Assembly (NCBI GenBank): GCA_963377175.1
Contig: CAUJNA010001868.1
Coordinates: forward strand, 574,380 to 638,379
DNA: 64,000 nt
Source: Effrenium voratum
Taxonomy: Eukaryota > Sar > Dinophyceae > Suessiales > Symbiodiniaceae
Direction: 5' to 3'
In this document: piece after piece, positions 29,985 to 49,936 of the stretch
Layout: every line of letters begins with the position of its first letter
How positions within the stretch are numbered: the stretch's first letter is position 1
Notes under the pieces: model-generated
What the model was told of the DNA's origin: nothing
Database searches by the model: none
The model's input: only the letters and a program-made list of their open reading frames with translations
Translations under genes and position numbers: made by a program

Positions 29985-30019
29985 CAGGATAAATATGTGT
30001 ATATATATATATGTGTTTG

Positions 30020-30170
30020 TGTGGATTCAGGTTCCAACCCTGTGCATGAGTGTACCTTGTACATGCTCCGCCGCTACAGACTTCAAGAGCACTATCAGCA
30101 GTGTGAAAAGTAGTCAACGGTTTGCTGCTTGCCTAGGTATTACCTTAGGTGGCCTAGGCTTGATAACACA
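30020..30170 (+). repeat. 5' LTR
   Basis: 151 bp, TG...CA ends, same sequence as 41682-41832. Short for copia, where 150-600 bp is usual. No TATA box is evident; dinoflagellate promoters generally lack one. Confidence 0.95.
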
Positions 30171-30190
30171 GGTTATCAGCCGTAAAGGCT
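30162..30190 (+). other. Primer-binding region, non-standard
   Basis: Reverse-transcription primers normally pair with TGG just inside the 5' LTR. Here the LTR is followed by GGTTATCAGCCGTAAAGGC, with no TGG. GATAAC (30162-30167) and GTTATC (30172-30177) form a 6-bp inverted repeat across the LTR edge. GTTATCAG resembles the TGGTATCAG of initiator-Met sites with one extra T. Confidence 0.4.
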
Positions 30191-30205
30191 TGTACAAAGA
30201 TCGCC

Positions 30206-33200
30206 ATGGCATCCGGAGATTTGCCCATTATATACAATATATCTGGAGAAGTTGGTGACGGTGGTGATGGTGCAGTTGCACCTACAGGTCCTGTTGACCC
30301 TCGCGATCCTCGAAACGTATTCGGGTTCGCGACAAACTACCAAGCCACCCAGAACATCATGCATGTGCATAACGACACGGGTGACGCTGTTAGGGAAGAG
30401 GCCAACACGTTACATCGCGTTGCTATGGATGCTACAAGGGCGGAATATAGCGCTCATTTGGCGGAAACTGTGCATCGCCTGGACGAGGAGAACAACCGTC
30501 GGACCCTTGAGCTGCACGAGCAGTTCGCAGAGGCTCGCGCTTTCTTCAACGCCCAGGTTGGCCAGATGCGGGGAGCAATTTCTGCCGAAGTGAACGAAGC
30601 TGTGTCGCAAAGAACGGCACAGTATAGCGCTTTCGCACAAAGCTTACATGCTGAGACTGTTGTGATGGAGAACTCGGAGAAGGCGGTCGGTGAGCAGAGA
30701 GACAGTATTTTGGCGGAGAATCACGCCATGCAGGACACGATCAACGGGCTGAACGACACCGTTGAGCGTCTGAGAAACGATCTCGAAAAGGCGCAGCGTG
30801 AAATGGTGCGCGGAGATCCTCAGCCTGCGTCAAGTGTACAGAACGTCAGTTCGGAGTCGTTTTTGGATAAGAGGGGCAGTATCTTTGATGATCCGCGTCT
30901 TTTTCCAACGCAGAATGCACAAACTTCTGGAACTATGCCACAGATTATTCCACAGCAGAGTTGGACTGATCCTATTTCTGGTGCAATGCAGTTTGATATC
31001 AAAGATCATGCGAGACGGTCTTCGGAGCAAGAGAACAGCCGAAGTCAGCAAAATCAGTCGACAAATCAGCCGAACATTGATCGGTTGACTGGTCCCGAGA
31101 CCACCGAGGCGGAGTTCCGTGCGGCCCTCCTCGGCTTCGTCCGGAATCAGCATGATCGGCCAAAAGCAAAGGAAGCTGATTCGTTGAGGCTGAGTGAGTT
31201 TCCCACTCCTGAGACCTATAGAGCCTGGAAAACGGCTACTCGCGAAGAGATTCGGGCTGCTTCAGATCGGCCTGATGCTGCATTCACCTGGGTTAACAAG
31301 GTGTACGTCAACCGGGAGGACAAGAAGAATCTCATGTTAGAGCTTGGAGATCCAGAGCAGTTTGAAACGTTGGATACAAAGCTTCTTGCGGCCTTGTCGC
31401 GGATTGCTAGGGGCGACCTTAGTCGGCAGATCCTCACCTACAAGGAGCAACAAGCTGCTTTGGACAAAGTTGTCCGTGGACGTCAAGTTCTTCTCATGTT
31501 TGAGCAGTATTTCAGAACGAATGAGGAGGCCGGAGCGTTGTATTCCACTGAAGATTTGTTGAAGGTGGTACTTCATGGCAATGATTTGATGACCTTTATT
31601 CAGAATTGGGATTCCGTCATTGCTGGCATGAAGATCGTTCCGGAGCAGCACGTCTTGAAGGACATTTTCTTGCGACAGATTCGTGGATGTCACAAGATCA
31701 AGTATGACCTCGATACATACGAGCGTGCAAAAGATGGGTCGTATGACAAGAGCTACGAGTTTCTTGTTCAAGCCGTTCGTGATGTTTTGACTCGGGAGCG
31801 ATTGCAGTCAAATCGTGATCGTGTTGCTCGAGCTCACAATCAGAAGGTCGGTGCTCCAGCTCCCAATGCAAATCCTGGGCGTGCAAGAGATCCGTCAGCG
31901 GTCAGGTATTGCTATGATTTTCAGAAAGGCAAGTGCACTCGGGATAATTGCATTTACAAGCATGAGAAAGACCCAAGACCCCCGAGCCAAAATCCGAAAG
32001 GAAAAGGTCGGGGGCGCTCTGACAGCCAAGCGAGAGACAGGGATCGGTCGGCATCGAGAAAGAGAGCGGAGCTGAAGAAGATTCCCTGCAGGTTTTTCAA
32101 AGGCGGTCAGGGGAAATGCACTCGTGGAGACAACTGTGCGTTTTCGCATGAGACTCGGTCTGCTGCACCAGCGACAGATAAGCCGAGCCCAAAGAAAGGA
32201 GCCAGCAGAGGTAGGTCTCCCACCCCAAAGGGAAAAGGGAGGAAGCGATCCCAGAGCAAAAAGGGCGAGTCCTCAGCCGCTGTGTGTCTGAGGGTGAAAG
32301 AGACCAATGCATGCCTCGCAGCATGCCGCCCAAAGCAAGATTTCTGGGAAGTTGACTCGGTGAACGAGATGGTTATTCGACACCATGTGATGCCTCGAAA
32401 AGCGCTTTACGATCCGAAGAGTGCAAAAGACCTTCCGATTTCACTGGAACGTTTATTGGATCAGCGCATCACCAAAGCCAACATCGATGGCAAAGAGCAA
32501 GTATTTGGTGATTTCTGGGCGGATCCTGATGAAGGTTTGGAGCAATACTGGACTGGGCAAACAATTTTCATTTGCAGTACAGATGTTTCCAATACCCGCA
32601 GATGCGTCAAATTCGCAGACAATGTCGAGGTCGTCGAGATCGAGGCCAACGGGCTATGCCTATCATGTGCTCCAAAGCCGAATGACCCTGAGGTTGTGTG
32701 GTATGATGGTTGTGCGCCTGGCTCAAATCCCAAGGATCTGATCGATGCTAAAGACAAAGCTTTGATTCTGGAAGGGGTTGTTGACCTGATGCATGCAAAC
32801 TACAACGCGCCTTGTGGGTTCTATTGCGAATACTATGATGACAATGACCCAATTTATTGCGGTTTATATTGTCCTGGCTGTTGGATTGATGATGATGAAA
32901 TGAACCTTGACGATGTGCCGGAGTACATTGCTACGCCAGCACCAGCAGGGCTTCGTCAGTGGATTGTCGACACAGGTAGTGAACAAGATCTGGTCGACTC
33001 TGAGCGTGCAGTTACACTTCAAAAGAAGATAAATCCTGCATTGACTCCAATCAATCTTTCAACAGCAAATGGATCAATTTGTGCAGACAAGATTGCGGAC
33101 TTCTCCATTGATCAGTTGAACGAGGTCGTCACTCCGTATGTTTTGCCGAGCACACCAGCTGTACTTTCTGTTGGTCAAAGATGTTTGGAAAAGGGGTACG

Positions 33201-36200
33201 ATTTCGTATGGAGAAAGAACAGTGCTCCGTACTTTGTTCGACCTGACGGGAAAGCGGTAATATTGAAGCTCGATGGGCGAGTTCCTTATGTTGACGATCA
33301 GTGCGAGGTCATAGCTTCTGAATCAGCTATGCCTGTTGCTCTTGCTGCATCCGATCAGAAGATCGGGGGCGTTGAAGTGCCTTCATCTTCAAGCGGAGGG
33401 CAACCTCCGCCGGATGCTGCATCGTTTCCATTGCGCCCTGATGAAGCTGAACCGCTGGAACCGGAGTTTGATCCGGAATTGGAGGACAACCCTGAGGTTG
33501 AAAAAGCTCCAAAACCGATGTCAAAGCGTTCAAAAGAAATGATGATGCGTGAGGCCAAAAGTGAAGAGCATCTTTTCACTCACAGGCCCAAGAACCCCTT
33601 TTGCGAAACGTGTGTGCGATCAAAGATGCAAGCACCTCAGGCTCGTCGCAGACATGGATCTTCTTCGGTGGATGCAAAAGCATTTGGAGATCATGTGACT
33701 GCTGACCACGTCATTTCAAATGATGAGACGTACGGGTTCAAGGGCGAGTGGAATGCTTTGGTCGTGAAAGATGTGTTCACGCAGTTCCGGTATTTTTACC
33801 CTTCAGCAAGGCAAGATGCTGACAGTTGCGTTCGTGCATTTCAACATTTCACGAAGCCAGATGATCATGTTGGGATTTTCTATTCTGACAATTCTGGCGA
33901 GATTGCAGCTGCAGTAAAGAGTATGGGTTGGAGACACGTGCTGAGCCAGCCATATGTCAGTCAATCTTCCGGGGTGATCGAGCGCGAGATTCGTACAATT
34001 CTGGAGGGAGCAAGAGCAAATCTGTTTCAAAGTGGTTTGCCGGTTGAGCTTTGGCCTTTGGCAGCTCAACATCATGCATTTGCTCTCAATGTTACAATTC
34101 CAGATGACAAGGATAAGTCGCCGTGGGCTTTGCGTTTTGGTGATGAGTTTCCTGACACGAAGATTCCATTTGGTGCAAAATTGTCGTATTGGATCAATCG
34201 TCAGCGCGTCGATTCGAAGCAGTCCAAGTTTCTGCCAACTTCGGATGTCGGCATTTTTGTTGGCTATCATGTGCAACCTGGCTTTACCTACACCCATGAA
34301 ATTTTGGTATTGCCGCTCAAGAATTTGCCGGACAAGTTGCGGACGGGTGACATTAATCCCCTCCGCGTCAAGCAGTATGAGTTCAGTCTGCTTGATGAGA
34401 CGTTTGTTTTTCCCGCAAAGCAAGCTATTGCCGACGACAAACCGTGTTCTCCGGATGAATTGGAATATGAGCCGGAGTCATATTTGCAGCCTGGCGAAGC
34501 ATCTGTGCTGGAGGAGGTTTTGATGCAAGATCCTCCCGCACCTGCCGAGGGACTTGCTGATCACGATCCTGATCACATGCCGGATGGGTCGGCAGTTCCA
34601 CCTGGGTTTCAATGGGATGGTTTTCGTTTGGTGAGAGCCCGAAAGTCAAGTCGTCCACCTGGTATTCCATCAGATATGTGGAAACTTGCCTCTCCCAAAG
34701 AACGCGCTCGTGTTGCTGAGGAGTATCGCAAAGAGCTCGCGATGAAGAAGGAGGCAAAGCCAGCTGCTGCAGACGTAGCTGCCACGGCCGTCTGTGTTCA
34801 GCCCAATCACGCTGTTCATGGTCAGGGGGGCACAGTCACTAAGCTCCCGTCGCCGGCAGCCGTTGCATCAGCTATTCCCGAAATGCTTGCTCCTGCGATG
34901 CCTGTCACAGTCAACGAAAAAGGGAAGACTGTTCATGAGCATCGAGCGTGTGTCACTGCAGTTATTGAAGAGCATATCAAAGACAACCGTGAGGATTTGG
35001 TCAATGCTTTGTTGATGACTGCAGCAGTTGCAAGGCTTATTCCGCGCTCGGAAGTTGCAAACACTCCTGAGGCAAAGAAGGCTTTGGATGTCGAATGGGA
35101 GAAGCTCAGAAGCAAAGGTACCTGGGACGAGTCGCGGGTAAAAGAATGCAAGACAGTCATTGCTGAAGCTAAGGCAAAGGGGGAAAAGGCCCACATAGCC
35201 CGTATCTTTGAGGCGTGTTACCTCAAGGGAAGCGAGCTCGCTGTGGGCGACCCCAGCCGAAAGTATAAAGGCAGAACTGTTTTCGAAGGAAACCGTGTTG
35301 TTGATGAGAACTATGAGCAAGCGATGTTTGCTGAACTTGGTTCTTCCCCTGCGAGCATGGAAGCAGGCAAGATTGTTGACCTGTACGGTTCTCAGCCTGG
35401 ATTTGGTAAGCAGCAGGGGGATGCAAAGCAGGCATACACGCAGGCGTTGTTCGAAGGTATCACTACATGGGTGAGGCTTCCACGAGACCGTTGGCCCAAA
35501 GAATGGATTGGCAAGTACAATGATCCACTGTCACCTTTGATTTTGGCATTGTATGGTCACATTGACAGCGGTGGCTTGTGGGAGAACCATTTCGAAACTG
35601 GTCTTCGAAAGAACAAGTGGAGGCCATTGTTGAAAGGCATTTGGCAAAGCGTATTCTTCCATGATGAGCTCAAGCTTTTGTTGGTCGTTTACGTAGATGA
35701 CCTCAAGCTGGCTGGCCCAACTGCTAATTTGGCAAAAGGGTGGAAGAACATCGAGTCTGCAATCGAGATCGACACGCCGGAGTCGCTCGGAAGGTATTTT
35801 GGCTGCGAACATGTGGAGCAGAATCAGGTGACATTGACAAAAGAACATCACCCATTTGCTCATGTGTTCGAAAAGCAGAGCGCAAGTCCTGCCGTCCCTC
35901 ACAGAACGGAAGATTATTGGGAGCATTTCCCTGAGGAAAAGATTTGGGTTCGACACCATCTTTATCCTAGAAGGAAGAGGTATGCCCCCGAGAACTTTGA
36001 GGGACTGCTGGATCTCCGCGTGACCTGTGTCGCAAAAGGCAACACGTACGAGTATCTCGAGGACTCGTGGAAAGCACAAGCCGATGTCAAGGAGAAGAAT
36101 TGGTGGACAGGCTGCACAGTTTTCAGCTATGCCGACCAGGTGGGAGGACATGCAGCCGCGGCAGCAATGAGAAACAAAACTGCTGCGAAGAAACAGTCAA

Positions 36201-36859
36201 AGAAGTCCAAGTTCAAGGAGCTCATTGACATGGATCACCCAAAAGATGGTTGCATGAAGACACCCGTCAACATCGTCCATTATGACATGGCCGATTTCTT
36301 GGATTCATGTGTTGAGTCTTATTGTGAGCTTGCGAAGACTTCTCGTGCTACCCTCAAGAATGTTTCGACCCCGTTTCATGAAATGAGGACAGCACTTCCG
36401 CGTGAGAGCGAGAAAGAACCAACTGGTAAGTTGCAACCCATAGCAAGCCGGGTTTTGATGAAGATTCTTTTTGCTGCAAGAATGGCGAGATATGATCTTC
36501 TTCGAGCAACTCAGTCACTTGCTTCGCGCGTTACAAAATGGTCCAAAGACTGTGATGAGGGATTGCATCGTTTGGTTGCTTACATCAATTCGACCCTCAA
36601 TCACAGGATGTCATGTTTTATTGGGGACAGTTTGCTGGATTGCCGACTGTGGGTTTTCGGAGATGCCGACTATGCAGGTGAGTTCGACTCGAGGTCAACT
36701 ACTGGCTGTGTGGCGGTCATCGTCGGCCCTAGTTTACCCCATCAATGCGTTTTCGAAGAAGCAAGAAGCAGAGTACTGCTATGTCATCAACTGAAGCCGA
36801 AGTTGTTGCTGCTAATCACTCCGTGCGAGCACAAGGTTTACCAACGCTTTCACTCATGA
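30206..36859 (+). CDS. Copia Gag-Pol polyprotein (RNase H end shifted)
   Basis: 2217 codons from an ATG in CGCCATGG. Order by residue: coiled-coil region (about 50-200); Gag-like helical domain (about 330-560); CCCH fingers C569/C577/C582/H586 and C628/C638/C644/H648 in basic SR/KG-rich sequence; a W-x-R-H-H-x-x-P-R module (about 711-800); retropepsin VDTGS with D922-T-G; integrase zinc site H1122/H1126/C1133/C1136 and catalytic D1167, D1228 (YSDNSG), E1259; reverse transcriptase with D1739 (GDAKQAY) and YVDD 1829-1832; a second W-x-R-H-H module (about 1902-1980); RNase H start GDADYAGEFDSRSTTG with D2153. After about residue 2175 the frame is wrong and the last 40 residues are not RNase H. 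CCCH fingers in place of CCHC knuckles are unusual. Confidence 0.92.
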   Translation: MASGDLPIIYNISGEVGDGGDGAVAPTGPVDPRDPRNVFGFATNYQATQNIMHVHNDTGDAVREEANTLHRVAMDATRAEYSAHLAETVHRLDEENNRRTLELHEQFAEARAFFNAQVGQMRGAISAEVNEAVSQRTAQYSAFAQSLHAETVVMENSEKAVGEQRDSILAENHAMQDTINGLNDTVERLRNDLEKAQREMVRGDPQPASSVQNVSSESFLDKRGSIFDDPRLFPTQNAQTSGTMPQIIPQQSWTDPISGAMQFDIKDHARRSSEQENSRSQQNQSTNQPNIDRLTGPETTEAEFRAALLGFVRNQHDRPKAKEADSLRLSEFPTPETYRAWKTATREEIRAASDRPDAAFTWVNKVYVNREDKKNLMLELGDPEQFETLDTKLLAALSRIARGDLSRQILTYKEQQAALDKVVRGRQVLLMFEQYFRTNEEAGALYSTEDLLKVVLHGNDLMTFIQNWDSVIAGMKIVPEQHVLKDIFLRQIRGCHKIKYDLDTYERAKDGSYDKSYEFLVQAVRDVLTRERLQSNRDRVARAHNQKVGAPAPNANPGRARDPSAVRYCYDFQKGKCTRDNCIYKHEKDPRPPSQNPKGKGRGRSDSQARDRDRSASRKRAELKKIPCRFFKGGQGKCTRGDNCAFSHETRSAAPATDKPSPKKGASRGRSPTPKGKGRKRSQSKKGESSAAVCLRVKETNACLAACRPKQDFWEVDSVNEMVIRHHVMPRKALYDPKSAKDLPISLERLLDQRITKANIDGKEQVFGDFWADPDEGLEQYWTGQTIFICSTDVSNTRRCVKFADNVEVVEIEANGLCLSCAPKPNDPEVVWYDGCAPGSNPKDLIDAKDKALILEGVVDLMHANYNAPCGFYCEYYDDNDPIYCGLYCPGCWIDDDEMNLDDVPEYIATPAPAGLRQWIVDTGSEQDLVDSERAVTLQKKINPALTPINLSTANGSICADKIADFSIDQLNEVVTPYVLPSTPAVLSVGQRCLEKGYDFVWRKNSAPYFVRPDGKAVILKLDGRVPYVDDQCEVIASESAMPVALAASDQKIGGVEVPSSSSGGQPPPDAASFPLRPDEAEPLEPEFDPELEDNPEVEKAPKPMSKRSKEMMMREAKSEEHLFTHRPKNPFCETCVRSKMQAPQARRRHGSSSVDAKAFGDHVTADHVISNDETYGFKGEWNALVVKDVFTQFRYFYPSARQDADSCVRAFQHFTKPDDHVGIFYSDNSGEIAAAVKSMGWRHVLSQPYVSQSSGVIEREIRTILEGARANLFQSGLPVELWPLAAQHHAFALNVTIPDDKDKSPWALRFGDEFPDTKIPFGAKLSYWINRQRVDSKQSKFLPTSDVGIFVGYHVQPGFTYTHEILVLPLKNLPDKLRTGDINPLRVKQYEFSLLDETFVFPAKQAIADDKPCSPDELEYEPESYLQPGEASVLEEVLMQDPPAPAEGLADHDPDHMPDGSAVPPGFQWDGFRLVRARKSSRPPGIPSDMWKLASPKERARVAEEYRKELAMKKEAKPAAADVAATAVCVQPNHAVHGQGGTVTKLPSPAAVASAIPEMLAPAMPVTVNEKGKTVHEHRACVTAVIEEHIKDNREDLVNALLMTAAVARLIPRSEVANTPEAKKALDVEWEKLRSKGTWDESRVKECKTVIAEAKAKGEKAHIARIFEACYLKGSELAVGDPSRKYKGRTVFEGNRVVDENYEQAMFAELGSSPASMEAGKIVDLYGSQPGFGKQQGDAKQAYTQALFEGITTWVRLPRDRWPKEWIGKYNDPLSPLILALYGHIDSGGLWENHFETGLRKNKWRPLLKGIWQSVFFHDELKLLLVVYVDDLKLAGPTANLAKGWKNIESAIEIDTPESLGRYFGCEHVEQNQVTLTKEHHPFAHVFEKQSASPAVPHRTEDYWEHFPEEKIWVRHHLYPRRKRYAPENFEGLLDLRVTCVAKGNTYEYLEDSWKAQADVKEKNWWTGCTVFSYADQVGGHAAAAAMRNKTAAKKQSKKSKFKELIDMDHPKDGCMKTPVNIVHYDMADFLDSCVESYCELAKTSRATLKNVSTPFHEMRTALPRESEKEPTGKLQPIASRVLMKILFAARMARYDLLRATQSLASRVTKWSKDCDEGLHRLVAYINSTLNHRMSCFIGDSLLDCRLWVFGDADYAGEFDSRSTTGCVAVIVGPSLPHQCVFEEARSRVLLCHQLKPKLLLLITPCEHKVYQRFHS

Positions 36860-37055
36860 GTGTGCTGTGGGAATTGCTTGATGCACCCAAGGAAAAGCAG
36901 CCAGCTGGTGGCAACGCCAAGCCGATTCCGTTTCCAGGCCGGGACAACTCCGGTCAGGGGGGCAATCCCGTGTTGGTTTATGTCGACCCCGAGTTGGACG
37001 AGATTCGGTATGGTGGTTTTGAGCAGCATGAAAGACGATAGCACCTCTTCGCGGA
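36725..37055 (+). pseudogene. Frameshifted middle of RNase H
   Basis: The RNase H reading continues through three frames. It leaves the Gag-Pol frame near 36730, runs briefly in a second frame (LVYPINAFSKKQ), then moves to a third (SKKQSTAMSSTEAEVVAA, ending at a stop at 37039-37041) and finally to the frame of the next ORF. One cause is visible: AAGAAGC is present twice in tandem at 36759-36772, a 7-bp duplication. The catalytic Glu of SSTEAE and the later Asp of CEDNQAT are thus in different frames. Mutation or assembly indels are both possible. Confidence 0.8.
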
Positions 37056-38081
37056 TTGAATGTTCATTTGAATGAGAAGTTTAAAGTTGCGTTTTGTGAA
37101 GACAACCAAGCAACAATTCATATCATTCAGACTGGAAATTCCGCGCAGCTTCGTCATGCTGACAGAACTCAAAGAACTTCTTTGGCGTGGCTTCGAGAAC
37201 AATTCACGAAAGGTTTCTTCAATCTCGTCAATGTCAATACTGTGTATCAGGTTGCGGACATCTTGACCAAGCCGTTTACGAGCAAAGCAAAATGGGATCA
37301 CGCGTGCAATCTTATTGGAGTACGGTGGGTGCAGTTGGATGGAAACATTACAATCAAACCAGCCCCCACTAGCGAGGCGCAAGCTTCCGCCGTTTCCACG
37401 CATGAAACCTATGATCGGTTCTTGTGCGAATTTTGCTGTTCTGATGATTCCAAGCTCGGCGACAAATCAAGATTACCAGCATTTGGTTGCAAGGTGCTTA
37501 GAGTAACTGAGCGTCAGAATGCGTTGGTTGCTGATACATTGAAATGGGTATTTGATGAGGTGCAACTTTTCAGGAAGAATGTCAAGTCCAAAACGCCGCC
37601 CTGCGTGATGCTTCATGCTTCACTTCCGTGTACGGGTGGGTGCCCCTGGAACAATATCAATGGTCAGACTCAAGAAGGTCAAGCCAAGATCCAGGAGCAC
37701 AAGGCGTTGTTTCGCAAACTGCTGAAGCGTTTGGACAAACTTATCACTATGCTTCGACAGCTTGACATTGTGCTTGTGATCAACATGGAACTTCCTAAGC
37801 TCTGCAGTTATTGGAAGAACTATTTCGTGCATGATTTCCTTATGAAATATGAGATGGTCAAGTATAATTGCGATGGTTGCATGTTTGGTGTCCTTGACAA
37901 GGATGGAAATTTGTTGCAAAAGTCATGGACTATTGCTTCTTCCTGTCAATCGTTGGCCAAACTGCAACAGTATAAGTGCACAAAGGATCATCAGCATGGA
38001 CAGTCCAGGGGGGCGGCCCTCAAACGTGCTGAATCTTACACGTATGAAATGACTGACCTGATCCATGGATGTTTTTTCTGA
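37056..38081 (+). CDS. RNase H C-terminus plus unknown extension domain
   Basis: The open frame extends upstream to 37032 without a needed ATG; the ATG at 37056 is internal. Residues 1-85 are the end of RNase H: FCEDNQATIHI, HADRTQRTSLAWLRE and the copia hallmark VADILTKPF. Residues 100-341 are an extra domain: a Cys-rich start (CEFCC), ASLPCTGGCPWNNIN (C192), MELPKLCSYW (E245), a GCMFGV segment, W-x-IASSC and KCTKDHQHGQS. I recall similar C-terminal domains in other dinoflagellate copia polyproteins but cannot verify this. The PC dipeptide loosely recalls cytosine methyltransferase motif IV; that is weak. It overlaps the next ORF by 17 bases. Confidence 0.8.
   Translation: MNVHLNEKFKVAFCEDNQATIHIIQTGNSAQLRHADRTQRTSLAWLREQFTKGFFNLVNVNTVYQVADILTKPFTSKAKWDHACNLIGVRWVQLDGNITIKPAPTSEAQASAVSTHETYDRFLCEFCCSDDSKLGDKSRLPAFGCKVLRVTERQNALVADTLKWVFDEVQLFRKNVKSKTPPCVMLHASLPCTGGCPWNNINGQTQEGQAKIQEHKALFRKLLKRLDKLITMLRQLDIVLVINMELPKLCSYWKNYFVHDFLMKYEMVKYNCDGCMFGVLDKDGNLLQKSWTIASSCQSLAKLQQYKCTKDHQHGQSRGAALKRAESYTYEMTDLIHGCFF
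38065..38081 (+). promoter_or_regulatory. ORF overlap, possible +1 frameshift or reinitiation site
   Basis: The upstream ORF ends TTT TTC TGA and the third ORF is in the +1 frame, with ATGGATG starting 14 bases before the TGA. TTC TGA G resembles antizyme-type +1 shift sites (codon before a slow UGA). Termination-reinitiation on the overlapping ATG is an equal alternative. Confidence 0.35.
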
Positions 38082-41000
38082 GTTTGCTGACAGCATGAAA
38101 CAGGTTGTCACCGATAGCTCGGCTCAGAGACCAACAAAACGTGCACTTGTTGCTCTTAAGCTTCCATCACCGGTAGCCGCAATGGCTGCTTACAATCTCG
38201 GGGAGTATGAGGAGGGCAACTTGGAGTACTGGCGAGGTGTGATGACGAGCTTCACGTCGAACACCTTGTTCCAGGAGACGAGGCCTGAGGATCGCAAGAC
38301 AATGGAGCAGATCCTCGGAGCACAGGCCACCCTTCAGAGTTCATGCGCTATGTGGGCGGCTGACTACGCGCCGGAGCTCATGGATACGCTCTGCGCCGTT
38401 AACGACAAAGGTCTTGGCCGCATCACGCCCGGGGCAACCTGTGGCCGGAATAGCGTATACCTTGTTGTGAGTGACTCCAGCCTCGCCCTCATCAGCGGTG
38501 GCAAGAAGAACCGCAAGAGGGCGGATTTGGCGCAGGACATGAACTACAACCGCAGCACTGGTTGTAGCCACTGTGAGGTGAGAATGTGTTGGGGAAAGGA
38601 TCTCACATTTCTCACGTGGACAGTGAAGAGCGCCATGAAGGACTTGAAGAAGCGCCCTGAGTTTAAGGACCACGACTTCTACGTGACGGTGTACTGGTCC
38701 GGGAACGAGCTCGTTGGCAGTGGTGGGATCTGCGATGAGCCCGAATGGCCATACCGTTGCGGAGACGGTCACTGGCCCGAGCTGTTCAACAAGTGCGCCA
38801 AGGCGATCGATGTGCTTGAGGAGTGCAGGAGTTGGTGGAGCATTGCAAACATCACGATCTTGGCCAACACCGAGGGTTCGTACTATATGCTCCCGCCCAT
38901 CTACAACCAGTTCATGGAAAAGTTGTTGGATGAGTCGCTCAACAAGCACAAGCTCCTTCGCAAGAAGGAGTCGACGTTCTTGGTATCTCGTCAGGACCGG
39001 CTTGACAACTATCACATGATGGACTCCATCGAGAACCGGAAGACGACGGTGGAGTGGCTGTGGTCGTTGTACAACGTCATGAAGTGTGTCGCTGTCGTTG
39101 AGTCCCACAAAGAAGATTTCAACAACGTCAGGTTGTACCTTGAATATTCTCATGACGCCGAAGCTGGACTCAACCCCAACACTTTGGCCGAGTATGAGGC
39201 GAACAGGAAGCTCACTCTTGAGTCATGGGAAAGCCTTCAACGTCCGATCAAGCTCGCGAAGGGCCGCATCCTCGAAAAGATCGAGGAAGTCGAAATCAAG
39301 GAGGAGATCGACTATGATGACGATGATGCAGTCCCGCAAGGGAGTGCCGCTGAGGCTGCGCTTGGCGTCAAGGCCGCTCCGGCTACACCCAAGTTCACCG
39401 CGAAAGCATCGCCTAAGGTACAGGCGAAACCATCGCCTAAGGTACAGGCGAAACCATCAACTGCTGCGGTGGCGTCGGATGTGCGGGGGGCAACCCCTGC
39501 CGGAAGCGCATTGCCAGGCAAGCCCGGCGGAACCGTCATCTTCCGCGGCCAGGAGTATGAGGCGAGGATTCTCCCGGGCACGATCCTGAAGGTGCCCAAC
39601 TTCATGAAGGGAGAAACGTCCTCTACCGATCGGTGCACAACCATATCTGGTATGCTTCGTGGCAGATTTCAAGAACAGAGGCCACTCGATTTCGATGAGA
39701 ACTATTTTGTCGACGTCCATCAGCTATGTGACAAATTCAACAGAAAGACCCGCAGCAATATCGGGTACAAAACGCTGTTGAAGATTTTTGCACTCGATCC
39801 GAAATGCAGATACACCGTCCTCGCGATCAAGCACCCTTCGGCTGCCGAGAACAACCAGGAGTGGGTTGTCATCAAAGTTCGTGCCAGTCAGGGACACGCC
39901 AGCAGCGTTGATGCTGATGGCGACATCAGCCGGAACCAGTATGCACTTGCGAAGGCCGTCTATGGGAAGTTTCTCCCGGAGGACGCTCGCAAGGTTGGAC
40001 TGCAACTTTCACCGGTTGATGATGGCCCTGGCAAACTATACCATCGCACGAGCAAGAACGCAGCCGAGAACATCGTCAGGACAGGTTTGGTCCCGGGTGG
40101 CGTTGGTGCCACGGAGAGTGGCCGCTCGCAAAGCCATTTTTCCATCCACCCGGTAGAGAGCTCATCGTACAATGCTGGAGTCCGAGCAACGATGCCCATT
40201 GAGCTTGTGATCGACTTCAAGTATGCGATTGAGCTCGGAGTGGTGTTTTTCCTTTCCGAGTCTGATGTCATGCTGACCAACGACATCGTTCCCAATGACT
40301 CCATTCTGTACTACACAGACGCGAAGACCGGAGAAGTGCTTTGGAGGAACGCCCTTCGTCTTGAGGCATTGGAGAATCAAACGACTGTCGATATGCTCGC
40401 CGCAAGGCGAGCCGTCACTGTGACTGCAGACGAGGCCTTTCAGACCGATGCGGAGGGGAACAGGGCCACAAATCCTGAAGAAGAGCAGACAAATGAGGAT
40501 ACGGCCGCTTCTTGCCCGGGGCAACCCGCGGCCGACACCTCAGTTGTCCGTTTCAAGACCTTTGCGATGCCCGTCCACTACACGGACTGCAGCCTCTGCG
40601 GCGAGGACATGATGCAGGGGCAGCTCAAGTGTCAGCGCTGTGGACGGAGCACCAAGGAGAACAACGACGTTCAGCTCTTCAGAGCCGCAAAGCGGAGAAC
40701 GCAGATGCTTGAGGAGGTGAGCCACCGCGTCGGCAAGACGGTTGACCAGCTCCTCATCAATGATTTCAAGGGCTATGCTGATGTTGCAAAGAGAGGAGCA
40801 ACATCCTTTGAAGCCAAGCAGATCGAGGCTTCGAAGAACTACGACAGCAGGGCCCGCAAGCTTGGATACGACAATGTGGTAGATCGGTTTGACAAAGACG
40901 CGACCTTCGCCCTTCGCATGGTGGAGCAAGGGCACAACCGCGACAGCCTCTACCAGATGTCTATCTATAGGTTTTGTGTCCTCCCCGAATTTCCACGGAG

Positions 41001-41514
41001 TTATGATCAACGACTTCTCGGGGTTGGGCCACGCTATGGAAAACGAGGTCTCCAATATGTGAGGACCGTCTACGTCACCGGCGGCAAGGTCGGGGACTAT
41101 GACGCCAGCCTGCTTGAGTTTCCATGGCTATTCTCGTACAACGGGAAAATGCTGAGTCTTCATCAATTCGTCGACCAGGTCAACATCCTCCCGGGGATGC
41201 GCAATCTCGTCACCTTTGGCGCGAAGTTCCCTACGCTCCGGGCAACCGGAGCCGTGGACCTCGAAGCTGAAGTCAAGGAGATTTGCGGCCAGGCGGAGGA
41301 CGATGCGAAGAAGCTCGCACGGCGCAGCCAAAGGCAAAGCGCCGAGGACCGCGCCCGCGGACCTGTGCAAGCTGCTCAGCCCGCCTCCAGCTCCGCTGCC
41401 AGAAGCCGAAGCTGGAGAGATTGGGGCAGTCAGGACTGGAGCAGTCAGGACTGGAGCAGCTGGCAGTGGTCGACCTGGAGTTCGCGCGGCTGGTCTACTA
41501 GCGGAAGGTGGTGA
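38065..41514 (+). CDS. Retrotransposon third ORF: SGNH-like + Tpt1/KptA-like + zinc ribbon
   Basis: 1149 codons inside the LTRs. Residues about 130-320 look like an SGNH hydrolase: block I VVSDSSLAL (S138), block III WSGNE (N214), block V D314-N-Y-H317. A linker follows (acidic 398-410; SPKVQAKP twice near 448-465). Residues about 525-765 match Tpt1/KptA, which transfers an RNA 2'-phosphate to NAD+: LRGRF (R532; the partner His of the family is Gly533), RASQGH (R606), LYHRTS (H660), HFSIHP (H691), GVRATMPIELVIDF (R707), GVVFFLSESDVMLTNDIVP. Three of the four tetrad positions (Arg-His-Arg-Arg) are kept. A zinc ribbon C842/C845/C856/C859, an unassigned domain (about 890-1080) and a Trp/Ser-rich tail end the protein. 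Codons are more GC-rich than in Gag-Pol. Confidence 0.85.
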   Translation: MDVFSEFADSMKQVVTDSSAQRPTKRALVALKLPSPVAAMAAYNLGEYEEGNLEYWRGVMTSFTSNTLFQETRPEDRKTMEQILGAQATLQSSCAMWAADYAPELMDTLCAVNDKGLGRITPGATCGRNSVYLVVSDSSLALISGGKKNRKRADLAQDMNYNRSTGCSHCEVRMCWGKDLTFLTWTVKSAMKDLKKRPEFKDHDFYVTVYWSGNELVGSGGICDEPEWPYRCGDGHWPELFNKCAKAIDVLEECRSWWSIANITILANTEGSYYMLPPIYNQFMEKLLDESLNKHKLLRKKESTFLVSRQDRLDNYHMMDSIENRKTTVEWLWSLYNVMKCVAVVESHKEDFNNVRLYLEYSHDAEAGLNPNTLAEYEANRKLTLESWESLQRPIKLAKGRILEKIEEVEIKEEIDYDDDDAVPQGSAAEAALGVKAAPATPKFTAKASPKVQAKPSPKVQAKPSTAAVASDVRGATPAGSALPGKPGGTVIFRGQEYEARILPGTILKVPNFMKGETSSTDRCTTISGMLRGRFQEQRPLDFDENYFVDVHQLCDKFNRKTRSNIGYKTLLKIFALDPKCRYTVLAIKHPSAAENNQEWVVIKVRASQGHASSVDADGDISRNQYALAKAVYGKFLPEDARKVGLQLSPVDDGPGKLYHRTSKNAAENIVRTGLVPGGVGATESGRSQSHFSIHPVESSSYNAGVRATMPIELVIDFKYAIELGVVFFLSESDVMLTNDIVPNDSILYYTDAKTGEVLWRNALRLEALENQTTVDMLAARRAVTVTADEAFQTDAEGNRATNPEEEQTNEDTAASCPGQPAADTSVVRFKTFAMPVHYTDCSLCGEDMMQGQLKCQRCGRSTKENNDVQLFRAAKRRTQMLEEVSHRVGKTVDQLLINDFKGYADVAKRGATSFEAKQIEASKNYDSRARKLGYDNVVDRFDKDATFALRMVEQGHNRDSLYQMSIYRFCVLPEFPRSYDQRLLGVGPRYGKRGLQYVRTVYVTGGKVGDYDASLLEFPWLFSYNGKMLSLHQFVDQVNILPGMRNLVTFGAKFPTLRATGAVDLEAEVKEICGQAEDDAKKLARRSQRQSAEDRARGPVQAAQPASSSAARSRSWRDWGSQDWSSQDWSSWQWSTWSSRGWSTSGRW

Positions 41515-41673
41515 ATGCAATCCTCATCACAACGGAGCCCTTCTGAGAGAGAGTAGCAATTTGCATGCACGACGGATGTGTAATGTCCATTTTCAACGTG
41601 CAATGGATGTGCGTATGGAATCAAAGCGGGTTGCAAAACCTGCCGACATTTTCGTTGTTGCTCAATCTCAAAT

Positions 41674-41681
41674 GAGGGGGG
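41674..41681 (+). other. Polypurine tract
   Basis: GAGGGGGG directly before the 3' LTR, the expected plus-strand primer. Confidence 0.85.
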
Positions 41682-41832
41682 TGTGGATTCAGGTTCCAAC
41701 CCTGTGCATGAGTGTACCTTGTACATGCTCCGCCGCTACAGACTTCAAGAGCACTATCAGCAGTGTGAAAAGTAGTCAACGGTTTGCTGCTTGCCTAGGT
41801 ATTACCTTAGGTGGCCTAGGCTTGATAACACA
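41682..41832 (+). repeat. 3' LTR
   Basis: 151 bp, identical by eye to the 5' LTR, followed by the GTTTG target duplication. Confidence 0.95.
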
Positions 41833-42194
41833 GTTTGGTTTTTATTTGGCACCCATGTGGGGGTTGGTTTTAAAGGGAAGACCAAACATACAACACGATT
41901 TTTCTGGGGTCGCCTCAAAACAGACACTTCCGTATGGCTGTGTCCTAAACTAGGAGACCTTAAACCAGCCCCAAAACGGGTTTCCAGTGCCCCCAAACAC
42001 TTCCAAAGGACCATGGGTTTTTACACCTTGCTTTTGCGTCAAGACAATGGTTTCATACGCCATGTTCCTCTTGGGATAGCATTTTTGGGGCTGGACAGGC
42101 TTTCCGGGGAGGAAACCGAGCACGGGTACGTACCCTCAAAGAACAGACGAGGCACCCACATGTGGTTTTTGCCTGCGGGGTTCTTTGATTGGAG

Positions 42195-42816: not shown

Positions 42817-42940
42817 TAGGTCCCCCAGCTAGGTGCCCTTCTCTCCCCTTTTTTGGTTGGGAGGGTTCCCCTACTAAAATAGACTACAATAAAGAAAACT
42901 CGGGTACCCTTGCTCTCTAACCTCTCTACTGGAGGACCTA
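42817..42940 (+). mobile_element. Family A element
   Basis: Intact ends in TA...TAG context. Left variant CCCAGCTAGGTGCCC as in the 29074 copy. Confidence 0.85.
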
Positions 42941-43126: not shown

Positions 43127-43243
43127 AGGTTCCCCAGTAGTGCCCTTCTCTCCCCTTTTTTGGGGGAGGGTTTCCCTACTAAAATAGACTACAGAGCAAA
43201 AAACAAGTACCAACTTATTCTAGCCTCTCTACTGGAGGACCTA
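43126..43243 (+). mobile_element. Family A element
   Basis: Ends GGTTCCCCAGTAG and CTACTGGAGGACC with TA flanks. Confidence 0.85.
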
Positions 43244-43899: not shown

Positions 43900-44038
43900 T
43901 AGGTCCTCCAGTAGAGACTAGGTCCTCCAGTAGTGCCCTTTCTCACCAACTTTTTTGGTTGGGAGGGTTCCCCTACCAAAATAGACTACAGAAAAAAGTT
44001 GGTACCTTGAATCTCTAACGTCTCTACTGGAGGACCTA
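43900..44038 (+). mobile_element. Family A element with duplicated left end
   Basis: The first 19 bases, AGACTAGGTCCTCCAGTAG, occur twice in tandem. The right end is GGACCTAC. Confidence 0.85.
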
Positions 44039-45389: not shown

Positions 45390-45511
45390 TAGGTTCCCCA
45401 GCAATTGGTGCCCTTTCTCTCCCTTTTTTTGGTTGGGAGGGTTTCCCTACTAAAATAGACTACAGAAAAGGGTACTGTACCCTTATTCTAACCTCTCTAC
45501 TGGAGGAGCTA
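45390..45511 (+). mobile_element. Family A element
   Basis: TTAGGTTCCCCAG on the left, GGAGGAGCTAG on the right, so one base of the right end has changed. The 3' neighbour repeat is shared with the 17709 copy. Confidence 0.8.
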
Positions 45512-47555: not shown

Positions 47556-47662
47556 CGGGGTTTCTCCCCACCCACTTCTGTGATACTTTTGGGAATCTCC
47601 CCCTGTATATGGGGGGTTAGTCTTTGGGGTTTGCCCTTCTTCTGTTGTATCACAGAAGTGGT
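47556..47662. repeat. Foldback repeat family J, copy 2
   Basis: CCCCACCCACTTCTGTGATA and TTGTATCACAGAAGTGG; middle CCCCCTGTATATGGGGGG. Confidence 0.8.
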
Positions 47663-47924
47663 CATTTTCATAGAATCACTGCTAAGAGTCCCCAAAAGGG
47701 GACCCCAAAAGTAATGTGTTCTTTGCTCAAATGGTACCTAAAAAGCGCTATTTAAACTCTTTTTGCCACATAAATGGACATTGCTCAAATAGTGACTAAA
47801 AAGCTAGATTTGCTACATTTTTTCTCTGGGCACATGAACCTTGATGCTGCCACTTCATGTTCAAGGTCGGCAGTATCACCTGGGGCTATGGACAATTGGC
47901 ATGATGACCCAAATGCTACTCAAA

Positions 47925-48625
47925 TACTCCAAAACACATACTAATTTGAAGGTTTTGGTCGAATCTGCTCAAATGCTGCTCAAAAGCTACTCAAATGCTA
48001 CTCAAATGCTACTCAAATACTCCCAAACACATCCTAATTTGAAGATTTTGGTCGAATCTGCTCAAATGCTGCTCAAATGCTGCTCAAATGCTGCTCAAAT
48101 GCTACTCAAATGCTACTCAAATGCTACTCAAATGCTACTCAAATACTCCAAAACAAATACCAATTTGAAGGTTTTGGTCGAATCTGCTCAAATGCTGCTC
48201 AAATGCTGCTCAAATGCTGCTCAAATGCTACTCAAATGCTACTCAAATGCTACTCAAATGCTACTCAAATACTCCAAAACAAATACCAATTTGAAGGTTT
48301 TGGTCGAATCTGCTCAAATGCTGCTCACTCAAATGCTACTCAAATACTCCAAAACACATACTAATTTGAAGATTTTGGTCGAATCTGCTCAAATGCTGCT
48401 CAAATGCTACTCAAATGCTACTCAAATGCTACTCAAATGCTACTCAAATACTCCAAAACACATCCTAATTTGAAGATTTTGGTCGAATCTGCTCAAATGC
48501 TACTCAAATGCTACTCAAATGCTACTCAAATGCTACTCAAATGCTACTCAAATGCTACTCAAATGCTACTCAAATGCTACTCAAATGCTACTCAAATACT
48601 CCAAAACACATCCTAATTTGAAGGT
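47925..48625 (+). repeat. Two-level minisatellite of 11-bp monomers
   Basis: Runs of the 11-bp unit ATGCTACTCAA (with CTG variants) are interrupted by seven spacers ACTCCAAAACACATACTAAT...GGTTTTGGTCGAATCTG at about 47927, 48019, 48147, 48267, 48346, 48449 and 48598. The number of monomers between spacers varies. Because 33 bp is a multiple of 3, a 210-codon ORF crosses it with an 11-residue repeat; I regard that ORF as an artefact. Confidence 0.95.
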
Positions 48626-48861
48626 GTTGCCCAAATTCCACGAAAAACCTTTAAATTAGGTGTCCCAGGGTATACCAACCCCCACTCAATCATAGGATCC
48701 AGTCGTGGGTTCCCAATGTTTACCCCCCCGCACTCAATGTGCAGTTTTGCTGCTTTTACGCGCTTAACTGTTGGGGGACCCCTTTTGCGGACTCTTAGCA
48801 GTGATTCTATGACATTTCCCACAACCCTGATTCGGGTAGATGGGGCTGTTTCCCTTTTGCT

Positions 48862-49814: not shown

Positions 49815-49936
49815 TAGGTCCTCCAGTAGAGAGGTGAATAGGGGTACCCGATTTTTTTGTTTTATGTAGTCTATTTCAGTAGGGGAACCCTCCCAACCAA
49901 AAAGAAGGTTGGTCAAAGGGCACGACTGGGGGACCC
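49815..49936 (-). mobile_element. Family A element, minus orientation
   Basis: The only clearly inverted copy: reading minus it starts GGGTCCCCCAGTCGTGCCC and ends CTACTGGAGGACCTAG. Confidence 0.85.

Follow-up and report, generated by a model that had tools for sequence, protein, structure and literature searches.

A Tpt1/KptA-like domain in the Gag-Pol polyprotein of a Ty1/copia retrotransposon family of Effrenium voratum

A Ty1/copia element extended past RNase H

The window, a 64,000-nucleotide stretch of the dinoflagellate Effrenium voratum (contig CAUJNA010001868.1, positions 574,380 to 638,379), contains at 30020-41832 an LTR element of Ty1/copia type, whose 3' part is occupied by the ORF under study. 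As originally predicted, this ORF runs for 1149 codons with R532, G533, R606 and R707 in place, and the LTRs are perfectly defined. They have TG...CA ends and a flanking 5-bp duplication, as in Ty1/copia elements. The element comprises:

30015-30019 (5' side) and 41833-41837 (3' side), no strand: target-site duplication GTTTG, letters read directly
30020-30170, + strand: 5' LTR, 151 bp, 151/151 identical to the 3' LTR
30171-30189, + strand: candidate primer-binding site adjoining the 5' LTR, letters constant across the copies read, one variant excepted
30206-36859, + strand: gag-pol ORF of this copy, with CCCH-type fingers, protease, integrase and reverse transcriptase (RT), from letters and weak profiles
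32960-32980, + strand: protease DTGS, from motif letters
about 33569-33985, + strand: integrase motifs, from motif letters
35690-35701, + strand: RT YVDD, from motif letters
37056-38081, + strand: RNase H end and about 220 residues of an unassigned domain, in a different frame in this copy
38065-41514, + strand: the ORF under study, 1149 codons, C-terminal module of the polyprotein, from the ORF list, genome copies and database protein P0001
38455-39054, + strand: SGNH-like motif region, residues 131-330, letters kept in two families
39643-40281, + strand: Tpt1/KptA-like domain, residues 527-739, from PF01885 (E=2e-12), a structure model and residues; key residues R532, G533, R606, H660, T662 and R707
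40588-40641, + strand: zinc-ribbon cysteines C842-C859, kept in a second copia family, with weak profiles
40642-41244, + strand: conserved region past the ribbon, residues 860-1060, function unassigned, from selection and the second-family alignment
41245-41511, + strand: Ser/Trp-rich tail with no visible constraint (shared variants 6 non-synonymous vs 1 synonymous)
41666-41681, + strand: polypurine tract, identical or near-identical letters preceding the 3' LTR in copies
41682-41832, + strand: 3' LTR, 151 bp, 151/151 identical to the 5' LTR

The protease, integrase and RT are named from their motif letters; Pfam profiles of the window gag-pol fell below cut-off for the fingers (E=4e-5 to 7e-3) as well as for RT. 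By motif letters, with RVT_2 at E=0.005, integrase lies upstream of RT and RNase H follows, which is the Ty1/copia order. The roughly 220-residue stretch linking RNase H to the module (37370-38064) contains a conserved-looking Cys (SLPCTGGC) and gave no match in a Pfam search.

A tRNA-like pattern built for the candidate primer site found four matches, none tRNA-looking by eye, and the ungapped pattern found none. When complemented, the sequence that follows the 5' LTR resembles an anticodon arm by eye, and half-tRNA priming would be a candidate mechanism; Hemivirus elements prime with a short tRNA segment only, according to the available text of PMC8515867.

Outside the element, the window holds an array of 11-base-spaced repeats (47861-48726) flanked by an inverted repeat (47649-47709 and 48771-48831), and a short dispersed repeat found on both strands (42836-42894, 43141-43199, 43938-43996 and 45412-45470, and inverted near 49855-49908).

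The module ends a polyprotein of a young, many-copy family

A search of the genome (1.16 Gb) with the 1149-residue protein gave 1,265 first-look candidates, 40 of which, the window included, were scored. All 40 scored loci span residues 527-739, confirming that other copies of the element in this genome carry the ORF; the match is full-length in 26 and has an internal stop in six. Thirteen of the 40 lie in an open frame that the search tool counts at 3,200 codons or more; of these, one has a stop within its match and one matches as two segments. The 5.3 kb gag-pol fetched from one such copy is open throughout. Database protein P0001 (1490 aa), the sole match when the protein database was searched with the module, runs from RNase H through the module end in a single frame. 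Because the long-frame copies and P0001 read through it in one frame, the module forms the C terminus of a Gag-Pol polyprotein of roughly 3,770 residues, and is not the separate retrotransposon ORF of the original prediction. In the window copy the frame breaks ahead of the module, giving an ORF boundary peculiar to this copy.

A complete 3' LTR, identical at 145-151 of 151 positions, was found in 28 of the 29 other loci with flanks, the remaining one being cut by the locus end. The 5' ends were fetched for 20 copies, and all 17 copies with both ends readable have matching 5-bp target-site duplications on the two sides; the non-readable cases include one LTR cut at the piece edge and one LTR that was not found. 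The two LTRs of a copy differ by 0-1 bases (16 copies compared), and in a search with the LTR and leader the 40 loci scored, out of 177 candidates, were each at least 94% identical. The window copia family is young and present in many copies. Relatives of the module were also sought in viral contigs, where none was found.

Chance capture of a host gene by one copy, or an assembly artefact, was a barely conceivable explanation from our viewpoint; it is ruled out by the 40 loci, by their differing flanks and duplications, and by the existence of a separate stand-alone Tpt1 gene.

Tpt1 domains in other retroelements of the same genome

A genome-wide search for the Tpt1 family gave 558 candidates, of which 150 were scored, all above the cut-off; since the last of them reached 50.8 bits, the window family (47.9 bits) appears to be additional to this set. 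Three loci (L039, L065 and L068) define a second copia family that shows the same order of parts and matches PF01885 with 63.8 bits. The modules of the two copia families are 25% identical over 1,063 residues, and their pol regions, taken for the second family from another copy, 48% identical over 1,257 residues. As both families have the module, it is older than the family split.

In another group of loci, Family A (L002-L008 and others), a canonical Tpt1 (E=8e-47) is encoded together with membrane-like segments and an OTU-like region. The OTU-like region matches PF02338 below the cut-off (E=0.0064), and Family A shows weak matches to viral polymerase chains that we take to be OTU domains. 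In one copy, on contig C1668, the Tpt1 match is followed some 4 kb downstream by an APE endonuclease (Exo_endo_phos, PF03372; E=1.3e-6, 28.8 bits vs 24.5). The 2,062-codon frame of this Tpt1 match is in register with the ORF ending just before the endonuclease ORF; judged from this register, Tpt1 and endonuclease would fit a single element. By eye, the C-terminal letters of L004 look like what we presume is a LINE zinc motif. The downstream endonuclease, the frame register and this motif together point to Family A being an APE-type LINE. Loci L066, L069 and L071 are also among the multi-copy LINE loci with an OTU-like region and a canonical Tpt1 before the endonuclease.

In nine aligned LINE rows, some with poorly aligned flanks, the ratio of non-synonymous to synonymous rates was 0.08 in the Tpt1 part (20 vs 72), against 0.29-0.41 elsewhere in the part examined. 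Within the LINE stretch examined, constraint is greatest in the Tpt1 part, which is under strong purifying selection.

The same genome contains a stand-alone Tpt1 gene (L001), 99% identical to one database protein and with relatives at 48-77% in Durusdinium, Symbiodinium, Effrenium, Polarella and Cladocopium. A multi-copy ORF reaching 1,958 codons (L040:3023-8896, also L041-L043) combines helicase-like letters with Tpt1; in L040 the Tpt1 match has E=1.7e-17 and the helicase-like AAA_30 match, below cut-off, E=0.0032. Two more diverged Tpt1 domains lie outside the named families, in L044 (C1386:37000-42999) and L067 (C3127:493900-494900); the former adjoins letters resembling the OTU region, where Pfam gives no match. 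A quick tree of 47 domains joined the two copia types (98), and L004, L044 and L067 (92), on very long branches for which the program warns of false joins; there may have been one capture or several.

The copia domain keeps the NAD+ side and is altered on the RNA side

Residues 527-739 match the Pfam PTS_2-RNA profile (PF01885) with 47.9 bits (E=2e-12), above its curated threshold of 26, and P0001 matches it at 2.5e-12. The profile match, the copies and the selection described below substantiate the proposal that an LTR element carries a Tpt1/KptA domain. Matches to three NCBIfam KptA models (5.5e-10 to 1.6e-4) fall far short of the cut-offs set for those models. A search of solved structures with the single sequence reached Tpt1 chains only at E=0.29, and direct comparison of the window domain with the LINE domain gave 21% identity (E=0.003), indicating that the copia domain is a far relative. 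An AlphaFold2 model, based on a 44-sequence alignment of mainly Tpt1 homologs, has a mean pLDDT of 72.7; it contains an insert of low confidence, and most blocks elsewhere score 73-95. In two-sequence searches against a host-type profile of 120 homologs, the NAD+ lobe of the window domain matched at 5e-15 and its RNA lobe hardly (0.018 over ten residues), and the second copia family matched at 1e-21 and 6e-4, respectively.

Of the 120 homologs listed, 39 were tabulated, and none of these departs from R-H-R, H, H-x-T, H and R at the key positions. Neither copia family has the Arg-His-Arg-Arg tetrad, which reads R-G-R-R in the window family and R-G-K-R in the second; the former otherwise retains the H-x-T, His and last Arg, in the latter the HxHF stretch has lost its His as well, and the LINE copy L004 retains every key residue. 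The glycine noted at the tetrad His (Gly533) recurs in all 30 window-family loci read, each with LRGR. H-x-T is present in 29 of these loci, the other having R for the NAD+-site H, and the second Arg and the last Arg were each seen in 28, the remaining two being unmatched by the search string.

In the available text of PMC6333775, H-x-T and the last Arg of Tpt1 bind NAD+, the tetrad His of CthTpt1 has the junction 3'-phosphate as its sole contact, and removing this His from RslTpt1 slows step 2 threefold, as against 210- and 710-fold for two arginines; the same source calls the tetrad essential in vivo and in vitro. Human and bacterial Tpt1 enzymes also ADP-ribosylate 5'-phosphate RNA, and every tetrad-to-Ala change in human TRPT1 abolishes this activity (PMC6582358, available text). 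Given the latter result and the essential tetrad, the copia domain may be inactive.

A fully functional Tpt1 that strips internal 2'-phosphates so that RT can pass, with R534 standing in for the His, would draw on the two tetrad arginines and NAD+ residues that are kept, on the one aligner that sets R534, beside Gly533, under the tetrad His, and on the canonical LINE version. We nevertheless regard it as unlikely, because the His that is invariant in 39/39 tabulated homologs is replaced in both copia families, one of which also has Lys for the second Arg, and because the RNA-lobe match is weak. The copia domain keeps the residues of the NAD+ side, is altered on the RNA-phosphate side and is maintained by selection.

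Purifying selection on the module

Selection was assessed in 29 copies plus the window, with no rows dropped and gap cells set aside. For variants shared among copies, the non-synonymous/synonymous rate ratio was 0.09 in the Tpt1 part (11 vs 38) and 0.08 both in the SGNH-like part and in the ribbon with the region after it; the remaining module parts gave 0.10-0.23, and the tail, with 7 variants, 1.56. These counts are of columns and not of evolutionary events, and they ignore the kinship of the copies. Single-copy variants of the Tpt1 part gave a ratio of 0.27, with three stops. These results indicate that purifying selection acts on the copia Tpt1 part.

Such selection bears on whether the domain is catalytically dead and retained for RNA binding or structure, as the His-to-Gly change and the inactive tetrad-Ala mutants of TRPT1 (PMC6582358, available text) would allow. 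Purifying selection speaks against this reading, while being compatible with a structural role too, and so does the NAD+-site H-x-T and Arg being kept across families at 25% identity; overall we hold a dead domain to be distinctly improbable.

The SGNH-like region and the zinc ribbon

The original prediction also placed an SGNH-like domain and a zinc ribbon in the ORF. For the former, the Ser138/Asn214/Asp314-x-x-His317 letters, which follow the SGNH pattern and by which we label residues 131-330, are present and invariant between the two copia families, there 23-27% identical. Support for the fold did not follow: searches of Pfam, NCBIfam, PHROGs and solved structures gave nothing beyond the motif letters, with GDSL_2 at E=0.091 in the second copia family only (Pfam) and just one unnamed PHROG at 0.29. 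A two-row AlphaFold2 model of the region had a pLDDT of 35.8. Comparison by hhalign with a TesA-type alignment from E. coli reached a probability of 0.3 in the wrong place, 5/20 column shuffles outscoring the real one in what is, with thin profiles (Neff 1.7 and 1.4), a weak test. The SGNH assignment is thus a putative one, made from motif letters.

Similarly, the four ribbon cysteines (C842, C845, C856 and C859) are conserved in the two families, whereas no zinc-ribbon profile reaches its cut-off (best E=0.041). Directly after the ribbon, at 40621-40890 (ORF residues about 853-942), Pfam gives a sub-cut-off match to DUF7728 (E=0.0013).

A possible role in RNA-phosphate chemistry

Our favoured reading, to which we give an even chance, is that the copia domain is an NAD+-using ADP-ribosyltransferase whose targets are phosphates on nucleic acid of the element itself, shifted away from full 2'-phosphotransferase chemistry. 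The position of the module at the Gag-Pol end suggests that it would travel with RT into the particle. There, the domain would use NAD+ to place ADP-ribose on a phosphate, which might be internal or terminal in RNA or lie at a 5' end; phosphates that hinder reverse transcription, priming or survival of the element RNA would thereby be removed or masked. With Gly at the tetrad His, it would probably be a poor complete 2'-phosphotransferase and may leave an ADP-ribose adduct. The original prediction had envisaged an element that edits, repairs or marks its own RNA, or else a repurposed domain; repurposing would fit the residue pattern best, and RNA editing, repair or marking by the element may be its use.

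The LINE-borne domain, with its full tetrad, is probably a true 2'-phosphotransferase. The copia and LINE cases would share one explanation if the domain readied element RNA or its primer for reverse transcription. A 2'-phosphate would probably halt reverse transcriptase. The exonuclease Xrn1 is halted by a 2'-phosphate (PMC6456296, available text).

Alternatively, the domain could ADP-ribosylate a host protein or host nucleic acid and thereby blunt a host response. This would agree with the altered acceptor side and with the kinship of the Tpt1 NAD+ lobe to ADP-ribosylating toxins (PMC6333775, available text). We consider such counter-defence quite unlikely, as there is no sign of a protein target, the Gag-Pol position suggests action within particles, and the LINE version retains the RNA-specific tetrad.

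Comparison with known systems

With Ty1/copia elements (Pseudoviridae) the family shares LTRs, 5-bp duplications, the protease-integrase-RT-RNase H order and a polypurine tract, but it adds more than 1,100 residues past RNase H with a Tpt1-like module, and its candidate primer site does not start with TGG. With Tpt1/KptA/TRPT1 RNA 2'-phosphotransferases (PF01885) it shares the profile match, H-x-T and active-site arginines, differing in the Gly for the tetrad His, the diverged RNA lobe and the setting in a retrotransposon polyprotein.

KptA also occurs inside the polyprotein of other RNA-based elements, namely Beihai picorna-like virus and Botrylloides leachii nidovirus, where it is assigned a similar RNA-processing role; these carriers are, however, positive-strand RNA viruses, and that paper (PMC9503650) contains neither the word retrotransposon nor the word retroelement. 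Symbiodinium LINE and DIRS elements with a DNA methyltransferase are likewise a dinoflagellate case of enzyme capture under purifying selection, but their cargo is not an RNA-phosphate enzyme, and Copia is said to lack the methyltransferase (PMC5890265, available text). Our literature search, whose coverage left out most subscription papers and preprints, found no paper on a retrotransposon with Tpt1/KptA cargo.

We tentatively propose, as a possibility that we ourselves doubt, that dinoflagellate retroelements repeatedly captured Tpt1-type enzymes because phosphate marks left on their RNA by host RNA processing or defence block reverse transcription, priming or survival, and that the copia lineage turned an eraser into an ADP-ribosylating RNA writer.

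Tpt1/KptA is widespread and, to our knowledge, its natural substrates beyond tRNA splicing are largely unknown. That two unrelated retroelement classes in one genome both constrain a Tpt1 domain points to a substrate important for reverse transcription or for retroelement RNA. Enzyme capture by retroelements of dinoflagellates, as seen with DNA methyltransferases, now includes an RNA-phosphate enzyme, and a part for NAD+-dependent RNA-phosphate chemistry in transposition becomes directly testable. Our results suggest that in these algae the handling of RNA phosphate marks may be part of reverse transcription and, if the copia domain does write ADP-ribose on RNA, this would be an RNA modification encoded by a retroelement.
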